This document shows positions 8,879-62,277 of a stretch of 64,000 nucleotides of DNA, one piece after another. The notes under the pieces were generated by a model, which saw only the letters and a list, made by a program, of their open reading frames with translations, was not told the DNA's origin and searched no databases. This DNA is from Mycoplasma sp. 1578d. Its GTDB lineage: Bacteria > Bacillota_I > Bacilli_A > Mycoplasmatales > Metamycoplasmataceae. The stretch spans positions 496,001-560,000 of the forward strand of contig NZ_CP102081.1 in the NCBI RefSeq assembly GCF_024582695.1, read 5' to 3'. A program made the translations under genes and the position numbers. Positions within the stretch are counted from its first letter, which is position 1. Every line of letters begins with the position of its first letter.

Positions 8879-10405
8879 TTAGTTTTTAAGAAAATCTTTA
8901 AGATTTTTACCATGTTTAGAATTGGATTTGATTTTGCGTAAAATTTTATTTTCAATTTGACGAATCCGTTCTTTAGAAACTCCGTTTCGTTCGCGAGCAA
9001 GTTCTTCAAGTGAATGAATACGATAACTTTCGCCATTGCCATTTTTTCCTACTCCAAACCGTTTGCAAATCAATTCTTTTTCATCTAATTCAAGAGTTTC
9101 ATCGATAATTTGTTGAAGCACTTCGGCTAGTTCTTCTTGGGCAACATAATCAACTGGATTAATGACATTTTCATCTTTAACAAAATCGCTAAAGCTTGAA
9201 TCGTTTTCTTTACCAACTTGCTTGTCTAGCGAAATTGGATCAATATTGATTTTACGGATATAACGAACTTTATCTGGGGTATATCCTTGGCCAAATTTAG
9301 CCGCGATTTGTTCATCACTAGGTTCAGTTCCTAATTCTTGTTGCAATTCACGTTCAATTTTAGAAATTTTATTAATTGTTTCAACCATGTGAACCGGAAT
9401 CCGAATGGTACGAGCTTGGTCAGCTACAGCCCGTGTAATAGCTTGACGAATTCATCAAGTAGCATAGGTTGAGAATTTAAAACCTTTATGAACATTATAT
9501 TTTTGAACAGCTTTTAAAATTCCAGCATTACCTTCTGAAATTAAATCAATAAATGAAAGTCCACGATTTTTATACTTTTTAGCATTATTAATCACTAAAC
9601 GTAAATTGCTTTGAATCAGTTTGTCACGGGCTTTTTTACCTCTAAAACCACCTTTTTCAATTAATGTAGCTAAACGTTTTTCTTCTTCAACAGATAATAA
9701 TTCACCATACTTACCAATTCAACGCATGTACCATTTAACAATATCATTGGTTTCGGTCAGTTTATTTTGAAGTGATTTACGTTTTTTTGTTAAATCATCT
9801 TCATTAAAGTCAATTTCAGCTTCAAAGTCACTCAAACTTAAATTACTTAAATCAATTTCTTCATCTTCAATGCTTTCAGAATCAAAATCAGCCTCAAGTT
9901 CACTCTCGCTTTCTTCATCATCCTCGTCTTCTTCGTCAAGATTATCATCACTTGAGTTAAAATCTTCATCTGTGTCTAGAGTTTCAAGATCTAAAAATTC
10001 ATCATCATCTAACACATCGTCAAAATCCTCATCATCATCTAATAAATCAGCCTCAAAATCATGTTTATCATCTAAGTGATCAACATTTGGATCACTTAAG
10101 TTTGATTTTGAATCTTTGTTTTTGTTTTTTAAAACTTTTTTGCTTGATTTTTTAGGGGTCTGATCACTTTGAATTTGAATTTTAATATCTTTTAACGAAG
10201 CAAAATCCTCATCTCCAAAATCGACTTGATCTCTAATGTATTCTTTTTCTCTTAGTAATTCAAATAATTCATCTGAACTTTCTTCATCGACCACAATATT
10301 CTTTTTAAGTAAAAAATCAAACACTTCCTCTTGGTTAAAGTGCTTCTTTTTCTTACTTTTGAGCTCTTTGTCTAAAATGTCTAAGACTAACTTATATTTT
10401 TCCAT
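8879..10405 (-). CDS. rpoD: Primary RNA polymerase sigma factor (RpoD/SigA)
   Basis: 508 aa over one TGA at 9719-9721. C-terminal part: region 2 ([33 protein letters not shown]), region 3 ([15 protein letters not shown]) and region 4 ([12 protein letters not shown], then [21 protein letters not shown]) are all standard. The N-terminal ~220 residues are unusual: a short folded start followed by a very acidic Asp/Glu/Ser-rich stretch of about 100 residues (~115-215), in place of the shorter region 1.1 of other bacteria. Start has GGAG 6-9 nt upstream. It lies 10 nt after dnaG and 2 nt before nif3, in the macromolecular synthesis operon order. Confidence 0.95.
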
Positions 10406-58848: not shown

Positions 58849-59271
58849 ATGAAAAAAATATTAAATTATCTAATACATCGTTTTATATACGAAATAAAAA
58901 CAGTAAAATTTTATCTAATAATTCTTTTTCATTCTGTTTTAGTGGGAATTATTATTCTCATATCTCGTTCAAAATATGATTTTTCAAACCAACAACAACT
59001 TATAGATGCTTTAATTATTGCTTTTGCAATTTCTTTTTTTGTCAATTTAGTTATTGTTGTTGGTAAAAATAGCTTCTTAAAAAATGTAGGTAAACACAAA
59101 GAAAGACAAGCAAAGTTAAAAAATCTAAGTCCAAATGATGCTAAAATTCGCAATATTATGCTTGAACAAAAACAAGAAGTTCACAGACATAATAGTTTAT
59201 ATTCATTTTTATTTGTTGCTTTTAGTACTACTTTATCGATTTTGATTTGCTATTTAAATTATCCAAATTAA
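58849..59271 (+). CDS. Small membrane protein with three hydrophobic segments, 140 aa
   Basis: Basic N-terminus, helices at ~residues 20-38, 50-70 and 117-136, with a lysine/arginine-rich cytoplasmic loop between (KHKERQAKLKNLSPNDAK). AGAGAG precedes the ATG. Ends 4 nt inside the convergent tsaC gene. No family recognised. Confidence 0.65.
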   Translation: MKKILNYLIHRFIYEIKTVKFYLIILFHSVLVGIIILISRSKYDFSNQQQLIDALIIAFAISFFVNLVIVVGKNSFLKNVGKHKERQAKLKNLSPNDAKIRNIMLEQKQEVHRHNSLYSFLFVAFSTTLSILICYLNYPN

Positions 59272-59738
59272 TCTCTTTTGATAATTTGAAAATTTTTATC
59301 TAAATTAATTAATGTGCTTGGTTTACCTGAAGATTCTCCAAAATTATGTACATTTTTTACTTGAGGAAAAATATTGTGAGCTTGATCAATGCTAATTGGT
59401 TTGCTTCCTGATAAATTTGCACTAGTCACATACATTGGGCCATTTTGTTCTAAAAAATTTAATAACAATTGATTATTAGGCATCCTAAAACCTTGGTCAT
59501 TAATAATGATACTATATGCTCCGGGCCAATATTTTTCGGCAACTTGAGTTGCCATATCATTTCATTGTTTAAACTTTTGAGCTTGTTGAATTGAGGAAAC
59601 TAAAATCATAATTTTTTTATCACGTGGTCGATTTTTAAGCTCGTATAATAATTCAAGAGTTTGTTCGCTAATTGGTCCACCAATTCCAGTGACTGTATCT
59701 GTACTAAAAATGTGGATTTTTGAATACTTATCTTCCAT
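59268..59738 (-). CDS. tsaC: Threonylcarbamoyl-AMP synthase, short form
   Basis: 156 aa, YrdC domain only. STDTVTGIGG (~residue 12), LKNRPRDKKIMILVSS (~residue 35-50) with the conserved K-x-R, YWPGAYSIII (~residue 71) and VTSANLSGSKP (~residue 104). First enzyme of the universal tRNA t6A37 modification; uses Thr, bicarbonate and ATP. The tandem Sua5 domain is absent, as in many minimal genomes. Confidence 0.88.
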
Positions 59739-59753
59739 TGGATTCCTTATTTT

Positions 59754-60362
59754 TTAATAATTATTTTTCTGAAATTGCTGAATTTTAAAATTGATTGAAC
59801 GAATAAACTTATTCTTTTGATAAGTTGTGTAAAGGTCAGTTACAGAAGTTTCGCGATTCAATTGACTGATTAAAAATTTATACTCTGAATCTGAAGAAAT
59901 AGATTTAAGAAAATCTAAATTATAGATTCCAGATTCATCATGATTTGAATTATTTAAATCATAACTGTGAATAATTCCTTTTAAATTATTGATATTATTA
60001 GCTATTTTTTCTTCAAAATCAAATTGACGATTATTGATTTTATTAATATAGTTAATCATTTTTAATTTAATTGTATATCAAAAATACGCTTCAAAAGGCA
60101 TATGAAGAAAATTCTTCCAATATTCAATAATTTCAAGCAGAATTGAATAAATATAATTTTGAATTTCTTCTTCACAAATACCATTATTAAATGAGTGTAA
60201 ACGTAAAATTTTACGTGCTAATGAACGAATTTTATATTTAATAAATTCGTAAATTAAACTTAATAAATGCGATGATCGAATTCTTATAAAATTATGAAGT
60301 TCGAAATAATTAATAATTTCATCTCTTAAATCTTTACGATAAATATAGCATTTATTCTTCAT
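59754..60362 (-). CDS. Divergent SigH-like alternative sigma factor (probable)
   Basis: 202 aa, joined over one TGA. Residues ~35-110 fit sigma region 2 of the SigH/ECF type: IKYKIRSLARKILRL, an EEEIQNYIYSILLEIIEYW helix, and FEAYFWYTIKLKMINYIN, in the same spacing as Bacillus SigH. The C-terminal ~40 residues (ISQLNRETSVTDLYTTYQ, then RSINFKIQQFQ) fit a weakened region 4 helix-turn-helix. Position supports it: Bacillus carries cysS-mrnC-rlmB-yacP-sigH, and here the order is cysS-rlmB-this gene. Its ATG lies inside the rlmB end (11-nt overlap) with AAGG upstream. In M. genitalium the sigma-like MG428 controls recombination genes. Confidence 0.6.
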
Positions 60363-61056
60363 TAACCTTGTTAGCAAAATCAAAGAGAATGATTCCAGTT
60401 GCTACCGATGCGTTTAATGATTGAACACTTCCATATTGTTTAATATAAACACTCTGATCAGCAACTGAAAGAACACTTTTTGAAATACCGTTACCTTCAT
60501 TACCGATAATTAAAAGTGAAGGTGTATTGTAATTAACTTGAGAATGGTTTACTGAATTTGAATTAAGTGTGGTTGCATAAGCTCAAAAACCTGCTTTTTT
60601 AAGCTTAGTAATAGTGGCACTAATTGAATTGACTCGATAAAAATTCATATTAACAAAACCACCACTTGCAACTTTTAAAACAGTTGGAGTAATATCACAA
60701 GAATTTTCCTTAGGATAAATAATATCCTTAATCCCAGCTGCGTTAGCAGTTCGAATGATTGCTCCAAAATTATGGGGATCTTGAATTTTGTCAAGGACTA
60801 AAACCCCTTTTGGTTTAGTCTTAATCAAGTGATTAGTATCTTTATAGTTAATCTCTTGTAAATAAGCTATAAAACCTTGGTGATTTTCTTTGCTAATTTG
60901 ATTGAGTTTTTGAGAATCAACAATCTGGATCATTGTTTTTTTAGAATCAAAAAGACTCGCATGTTCTTTTTTAGATACTAAGATTTTTAAAATGGGTAAA
61001 TTATTTTTATAAGCTTCAAGCACAGAGTTTTTGCCGCTGATTATGAATTTATGCAT
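60352..61056 (-). CDS. rlmB: 23S rRNA 2'-O-ribose methyltransferase (SpoU family)
   Basis: 234 aa. N-terminal substrate-binding domain (SGKNSVLEAYK), then SPOUT motifs: VLVLDKIQDPHNFGAIIRTANAAG (motif 1, key residues DxxDPxNxGAIxR), LLIIGNEGNGIS (motif 2) and YGSVQSLNASVATGI (motif 3, SLNxSxA). It binds AdoMet in a knot fold and methylates 23S rRNA (E. coli G2251). ATG directly adjacent to the cysS stop; the two are coupled. Confidence 0.93.
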
Positions 61057-62277
61057 TTAAAAAATTCCCTTCTTAATTAGAAGACTTCGAATCTGGTCAC
61101 TTTGTTCATATTTTTTTTGTGAATTAAGTACTTCTCATTGTTTATATAAAATTAAGTATTCTTGATAATTAATATTTTGAAAATTAAAGTCCATTGAGTT
61201 AAAGATTTTAATTAATGTGATTGCATAAACAGGATTATTATTAGCTTTTTTAATGAGATCGTGTATAAGATTCATGAATTTAGAAAAATTAAGCTCTAAA
61301 ATAAAACCCATAGCTTGTTTAAATATTTCTTGGTCATATAATATATTTGAAATTTGTGATTTAAATATTTTGAAATAAATTTTTGTAATCTTGTTAATGA
61401 GTTTATTTGCGTTATTAATCGCATTATCATCTAGATTAATAATTCCAGTAATTGAGTTCATAAGTAAAATAAATTTATAAACATCAGCTCCATGAATATT
61501 AACAAAATCCTTAGCTAAAATAACATTGTTTAATGATTTAGACATTTTAATTCCATTTAAGTTAAGGGTCCCTGTACGAAGTCATTTTTTTGTTATTTTA
61601 TTTCCGGTTAAAGATTGAAATTGAATATTTTCATTTTCATGATGCGGAAAAATAAGGTCAGTCCCACCTCCATGAACATCAACACCTTGTGAACCAAAAT
61701 TTTTGTAAATGATCACGCAACATTCAGTATGTCATCCTGGTCTTCCATTTCCAAAAGATGAAGGATATTGCACACCGGGTGTTTTAGTTTTCCATAAAGC
61801 AAAATCAGCTGGATGTCTTTTTTGATATTGAGTATCTTCAAAAATCATATTATCAAGTTTTTGATTTGAAACAGAACCATATTGCTCTTGGTTCTTACCA
61901 ACATCAAACCATACATTTTTATCTGTATCTATGTATGCATTTTTACTAATAATTAAATTTTTAATAAACTTATCAATGTGTTGTAAGTTTTCAGTTACAT
62001 ATTCAATTTTTGAAATAGTGTTTACATTTAATTGTTCAAGTAAGCTAAGGTACTCTTGAGCATACTTTTGAGCAATTTGTTTTTCAGAGACATTTTCTTG
62101 AATTGCTCGATTAATAATTTTGTCGTCAATATCGGTAATATTGTGAACAAAATAAAATTTTTTTCCTAAATTTCGAGCTGCTTTTAAAATTAGATCCATT
62201 GATAAAATGGGTCTAATGTTTCCAATATGCACACTATTATAAACCGTTGGACCACATACATAGATTTTGTAAAACAT
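61057..62277 (-). CDS. cysS: Cysteinyl-tRNA synthetase
   Basis: 406 aa, joined over TGA codons. Zinc Cys and HIGH region [18 protein letters not shown] (~residue 6-23), WHTECCVII (second zinc site, ~residue 182), HENENIQ and [12 protein letters not shown] (KMSKS, ~residue 245). Standard length for minimal genomes. The first ATG is used; the -10 box at 62284-62289 leaves no leader. Heads the cysS-rlmB-sigma operon, divergent from argS. Confidence 0.95.

Follow-up and report, generated by a model that had tools for sequence, protein, structure and literature searches.

A diverged SigH-lineage sigma factor gene behind cysS-rlmB in Mycoplasma sp. 1578d and its genus, with a probable role in DNA uptake and recombination

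Background

The usual picture of mycoplasmas is of bacteria with a single sigma factor and almost no control of transcription, and how genes pass between them is an old question. The ComX/SigX protein of streptococci, discussed in PMC3364868, is a SigH-like factor dedicated to the late competence genes. It recognises a short box different from the element described below. Overexpression of SigH in Lactobacillus sakei strongly induces the com operons and dprA, together with a 2.7-fold induction of recA (PMC3364868). In Mycoplasma genitalium, sigma-20 (MG428) controls recA, ruvA and ruvB (PMC9262362). Phytoplasmas, which are also mollicutes, have a FliA-like protein as second sigma factor (PMC3831623). 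In the Bacilli, the ancestral gene cluster has been reconstructed as cysS-rnc-rlmB-orf1-sigH with the secE operon after it (PMC8046335).

The DNA analysed here, called the window, is a stretch of 64,000 nucleotides of Mycoplasma sp. 1578d (contig NZ_CP102081.1, positions 496,001 to 560,000). A preliminary description of it had pointed to a divergent SigH-type sigma factor next to rlmB, an assignment that the slot, a full-length match to the SigH profile and a sigma fold now bear out. Our literature search found no paper describing this sigma gene in the genus. The gene resembles SigH of Bacillus and other Bacilli in its slot after rlmB and before nusG, in profile similarity over the full length, in the best structural match and in probably controlling competence genes, as SigH does in L. 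sakei (PMC3364868). It differs in an identity of about 13% over aligned columns, below the curated cut-offs, in that region 4 of the genus is without the first helix of the helix-turn-helix, and, compared with Bacillus, in standing outside any sporulation context. With sigma-20 it shares the condition of an alternative sigma factor in a mycoplasma, and the regulon of sigma-20, which includes recA and ruvAB, has its counterpart here in recA and ruvA genes that carry the com/rec element; in the text read no link of sigma-20 to comEA, comEC or dprA was found (PMC9262362). Considering the window protein an analogue of MG428 would be an argument by analogy. ComX/SigX is alike in being SigH-like but is encoded at a different genomic location, and the phytoplasma factor, of the sigma-28 type and present in several copies on mobile units, contrasts with a gene that sits in the SigH slot.

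The gene and its reading frame

The features of the locus, together with the housekeeping sigma factor found in the same window, are the following.

59757..60362, minus strand: SigH-type sigma factor gene, 202 codons in code 4 translation, with the stop codon at 59754-59756
60078..60080, minus strand: in-frame TGA (Trp95 in code 4 translation), inside region 2.3
60352..61056, minus strand: rlmB, same operon, overlapping the start of the sigma gene by 11 nt
61057..62277, minus strand: cysS, first gene of the operon, abutting rlmB
59268..59738, minus strand: presumed tsaC/Sua5-like gene (assigned from the sequence by eye), downstream of the sigma gene in the window clade
9407..9619, minus strand (505407-505619 of the genome): region 2 of RpoD, the housekeeping sigma factor, matching Sigma70_r2

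The ATG lies at 60362, the last sense codon ends at 59757 and the single TGA is codon 95, confirming the earlier claim of a 202-aa frame cut in two by a TGA read as tryptophan; a code 11 reading would break the ORF into about 94 and 107 aa. The interval 59754-60362 given previously is correct, while its plus-strand orientation is not, as the frame runs on the minus strand and the opposite strand there has stops throughout. Against the nearest relative (70% amino acid identity) dN was 0.18 and dS 0.94, and against the second-nearest 0.28 and 1.37 (NG86, code 4 in both cases). Because of this low dN of 0.18 relative to a dS of 0.94, the ORF is a real protein under purifying selection. Automatic annotation is likely to miss the gene in dozens of genomes, and the present reading would give it a name.

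Conservation of the slot

To survey the slot, rlmB was located in each of the genus's 61 genomes and the surrounding sequence was read. An intact ORF follows cysS-rlmB in 58 of the 61 species, immediately or shortly after it, with a length of about 180-250 codons and usually touching or overlapping rlmB. In one genome (G063, locus L085) the slot gene is broken by a TAA and its close relative G064 has it intact; in two others (G021 and G011) the cysS-rlmB slot holds no sigma gene. Downstream, the first gene recognised in most of the genus is nusG. The window clade (G000, G016, G067 and G069) keeps cysS-rlmB followed by the sigma gene and has tsaC where the others have nusG.

The two genomes with an empty slot contain a match to the family elsewhere (L131 and L132, 236-250 aa), directly upstream of genes that on reading we take to be rplK-rplA. 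It may be either a relocated copy or a second paralogue.

Used directly as query, the window protein picked up relatives in 12 of the 60 related genomes, and the family profile matched 102 of 135 genomes of the taxonomic family, which represent 13 of its 14 genera. Most of the loci read from these other genera have the same order, cysS-rlmB, the sigma-like gene and nusG, and in Bacilli with a recognisable SigH the SigH gene comes directly after rlmB, with nusG mostly downstream. The gene therefore holds the SigH-lineage position of the cysS-rlmB-sigH-secE-nusG cluster. The preliminary description had placed it in the sigH slot of the Bacillus order, a placement that holds within the genus, in other genera and in Bacilli; the order is conserved in relatives, where a lack of conservation had been named as grounds for rejecting the assignment. 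A search for related loci with the window sigma protein found nothing, and with RlmB the relatives named included Mycoplasmopsis cricetuli and M. sturni. A SigH-like gene directly after cysS-rlmB is present in further families of the order as well (L143, L144 and L145, in G058, G165 and G045), here with a complete helix-turn-helix.

Similarity to sigma factors

Taken alone, the window protein is missed by the curated models, so that the link to sigma factors needed a comparison between profiles. Its residues 37-135 matched the NCBIfam model sigma70-ECF (TIGR02937, sigma-70 superfamily) with E=0.006 and 16.2 bits, below the cut-off of 42.9, and it had no match to TIGR02859, the spore_sigH equivalog with a cut-off of 294.8 bits. 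The latter cut-off is reached by none of 120 sampled genomes of the class and by one control genome. A tally of TIGR02859 over the order was rejected as evidence for SigH, as it mostly finds region 2 of RpoD again. A Pfam search with the single window protein returned chance matches (Fijivirus_P9-2 and STE), and a sequence-profile search of PDB chains returned no sigma chain. Its identity to most family members is 11-28%, reflecting fast divergence.

The family as a whole and the orthologues in other genera gave a different result. Aligned with 30 SigH proteins of Bacilli by hhalign, the genus family matched with a probability of 97.5% and E=5.8e-12, and the 175 aligned columns include regions 2 and 4. 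The reversed SigH alignment gave 0.4%, rlmB 0.06% and RpoD 18.6% (47 columns). Same-slot orthologues of other genera scored 47.2 (L114), 52.1 (L117) and 43.0 bits (L129) with sigma70-ECF, whose cut-off is 42.9, and L117 also exceeded the Pfam cut-offs for region 4. Among the 57 aligned members of the genus, sigma70-ECF was the commonest NCBIfam match (19 of 57), other sigma models including SigH came next, and Sigma70_r2 matched eight with weak scores. Furthermore, a stretch of the type K-x-x-x-LN-x-x-x-x-(L/F)(D/E) between regions 2 and 4 is found in the other-genus orthologues and in several SigH proteins. The profile check against Sigma70_r2/r4 proposed earlier thus fails for the single protein, below the curated cut-offs, and succeeds for the family profile and the orthologues.

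The chance Pfam matches and the PDB search without a sigma chain are what would be expected from an unrelated all-helical protein occupying the slot, its sigma matches arising from low-complexity, A/T-driven composition. The full-length SigH match with its clean reversed control, the orthologues passing the curated sigma cut-offs and the first rank of B. subtilis SigH in both structure searches (below) speak against such a protein, to which we give hardly any credence.

Predicted structure and the reduced region 4

The AlphaFold2 model of the window protein, built with the genus alignment, has a mean pLDDT of 85 and places the two sigma regions as follows.

60033..60254, minus strand: sigma region 2 (the part for core binding, -10 recognition and melting), residues ~37-110, from the sigma70-ECF match, the SigH alignment and the AlphaFold2 helices
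59760..59918, minus strand: reduced sigma region 4, residues ~149-201, from the AlphaFold2 helices and the alignment
59760..59825, minus strand: retained equivalent of the recognition helix, residues 180-201, without the helix that comes before it in relatives (kEIAk.lG)

Region 2 is modelled as helices 30-56, 64-73, 75-84 and 90-110 and region 4 as helices 149-155, 158-168 and 180-201. In Foldseek the best PDB match was 9a4r, SigH of B. subtilis (E=0.12, probability 0.80, not significant singly), and sigma factors made up most of the next 50 matches, at E > 0.1. For the model of the L117 orthologue (pLDDT 84) B. subtilis SigH again ranked first, at E=2.3e-5; the 50 matches listed consisted of sigma factors or of complexes of sigma with RNA polymerase. 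The structure prediction that had been suggested as a check therefore yielded a sigma fold and not a different one. Region 2 is recognised by the hhalign comparison with SigH, by the sigma70-ECF and Sigma70_r2 matches and by AlphaFold2 and Foldseek, and the region-2-like arrangement of helices noticed previously is intact both in the SigH alignment and in the model.

The helix-turn-helix-like end described at the same time is half there. L117 has region 4 helices at 134-145, 150-157 and 161-179, and in place of the middle one the window protein has a loop, between its helices 158-168 and 180-201. In the alignment the (K/E)-x-I-x-K-x-x-G helix is deleted across the genus, and the recognition helix is kept as (S/T)(S/T)-x-x-K-x-N-x-I-x-x-x-I-x-x-K. 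The other-genus orthologues have the complete helix-turn-helix; in the genus of the window the second of the two helices stands without the first. Being below the SigH and sigma-70 cut-offs and without a complete region 4 helix-turn-helix, the protein is classified as a diverged SigH-lineage factor, outside the curated SigH equivalog.

This genus-wide loss in region 4.2 could also mean that sigma function itself was lost and that a decayed SigH, no longer choosing promoters, persists as a core-binding competitor or co-factor. The fast divergence of the sequence, the broken slot copy in G063 and the two species where it is missing would agree. However, purifying selection and maintenance in 58 of 61 species, the conservation of the C-terminal helix and of positions in region 2, and the availability of a separate class of promoters to be read make a decayed protein quite improbable. 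A diverged sigma factor that still selects promoters remains our preferred reading.

A candidate promoter element at competence and recombination genes

Genes for DNA uptake and recombination are nearly universal in the genus (comEC in 59, dprA in 60 and recA in 61 of the 61 genomes). Upstream of comEA-comEC, dprA, recA and ruvA there is a common element composed of a T-rich part, TYCN, T5-6 and WGTTCAcTT, which is dissimilar to the consensus of Bacillus sigma-H. At comEA, first gene of the comEA-comEC operon, it appears as a T-rich stretch with an internal C, often with AGTTCA, mostly about 42-55 nt before the ATG, and the same type of element was found upstream of dprA and recA. Motifs were learned by EM from one gene and scored on the remaining ones, with 201 other intergenic upstreams as controls. 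Every cross-gene test gave p of about 1e-8 to 1e-16, and ruvA, fully held out, gave p=5e-10 versus the controls and 7e-8 versus cysS, 15 of its 20 sites scoring higher than the 95% control level; these p-values are optimistic, as the genomes are related and near-duplicates were removed by hand only. A TATAAT no more than 60 nt from the start is present in one of 149 com/rec upstreams, compared with 42 of 61 for cysS and 91 of 201 for the general controls. The earlier suggestion of a link to DNA uptake or recombination is supported by this common non-TATAAT element, with the sigma protein as its presumed reader.

Terminator T-tracts of upstream genes were considered as the sole source of the element. 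Some copies do follow hairpins, but the narrow range of distances to the ATG, the internal C and GTTC recur separately in four gene families and speak against such an origin alone.

In the window species itself comEA has a clear copy of the element (score 5.67, with a threshold of 4.87) and dprA a marginal one (4.58), none was found upstream of recA (1.90), and a PWM scan of the 64-kb window found no convincing promoter sites. The fixed string YCTTTTTTAGT was too unspecific in this genome (28 matches, versus 19 for the reversed control); when located 10-75 nt before an ORF of at least 90 aa it is found at comEA only.

The T-rich, weakly conserved form of the element in the window species would fit a situation in which the SigH-lineage factor serves other genes and RpoD with an activator, or some other regulator, reads the com/rec element. 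We think this unlikely. Four gene sets nearly without TATAAT would be unusual even for activator-assisted RpoD promoters. RpoD is the sole Sigma70_r2 match in the genome, so that the sigma protein, the sole sigma factor found besides it, is the only known candidate reader. Moreover, SigH of L. sakei (PMC3364868) and sigma-20 of M. genitalium (PMC9262362) govern the same genes and functions.

Proposed role

Orthology by slot and profile, the sigma fold, selection, the common element and the scarcity of TATAAT are observations; recognition of the element by the sigma protein, and the timing of that protein's activity, are inferred. All together, the gene probably encodes a diverged sigma factor of the SigH lineage, vertically inherited in its ancestral slot, that reads non-TATAAT com/rec promoters for DNA uptake and recombination. 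The intact region 2 would bind the RNA polymerase core and open the promoter, the GTTCAC-like part of the element may be the equivalent of a -10 box, and the T-rich part just upstream might make contact with the helix left in region 4 or with the core. With the first helix of region 4 lost, promoter choice would depend mainly on region 2 and the recognition helix, which fits the compactness of the element. The distance from the element to the ATG would accommodate a short leader carrying a GGAGG-type ribosome site, of the kind seen at many dprA, recA and ruvA genes, unlike the cysS promoter, whose TATAAT is often just a few nt from the ATG. Once active, the factor would switch on comEA-comEC, dprA, recA and ruvA and hence DNA uptake and homologous recombination. 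In its most specific form, the proposal is that a reduced SigH with half a helix-turn-helix reads a compact promoter (T-rich plus GTTCAC-like, with no -35 element 17 nt upstream) and runs a competence regulon of the genus leading to regulated natural transformation; this we put forward tentatively, as somewhat short of an even chance.

If true, a conserved second sigma factor tied to comEA-comEC, dprA, recA and ruvA would provide both a regulator and an inducible programme testable in culture-collection strains, wall-less bacteria of a genus sampled in 61 species would have regulated natural transformation, and competence, as a core function of SigH, would have outlived the loss of the cell wall and of sporulation.

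Exact sites of the element and other upstream regions

An exact search for YCNTTTTTWGTTCACTT in the 61 genomes gave 13 sites, versus one for the reversed pattern. Seven lie before com/rec genes (three recA, two comEA, one dprA and one ruvA), two before mnmE, two before a small protein upstream of a presumed rplU, and two are without a convincing long ORF; mnmE, ruvA and rplU at these sites are what we take the genes to be from reading their translations. At mnmE (L321 and L322, in G003 and G014) the exact com-type element stands alongside TATATTATTG, a TATAAT-like box, a combination that may be due to chance or to dual control. The small protein (L328 and L330, in G021 and G061), of about 75-90 aa, is under the com-type element directly upstream of the rplU-like gene and has a KTKEAxYKW motif and a glycine/hydrophobic middle; it is possibly a new member of the competence regulon. 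In the cysS upstreams (L044-L103) TATAAT is often situated about 7-12 nt before the ATG, so short a distance suggesting that cysS transcripts may be leaderless in the genus.
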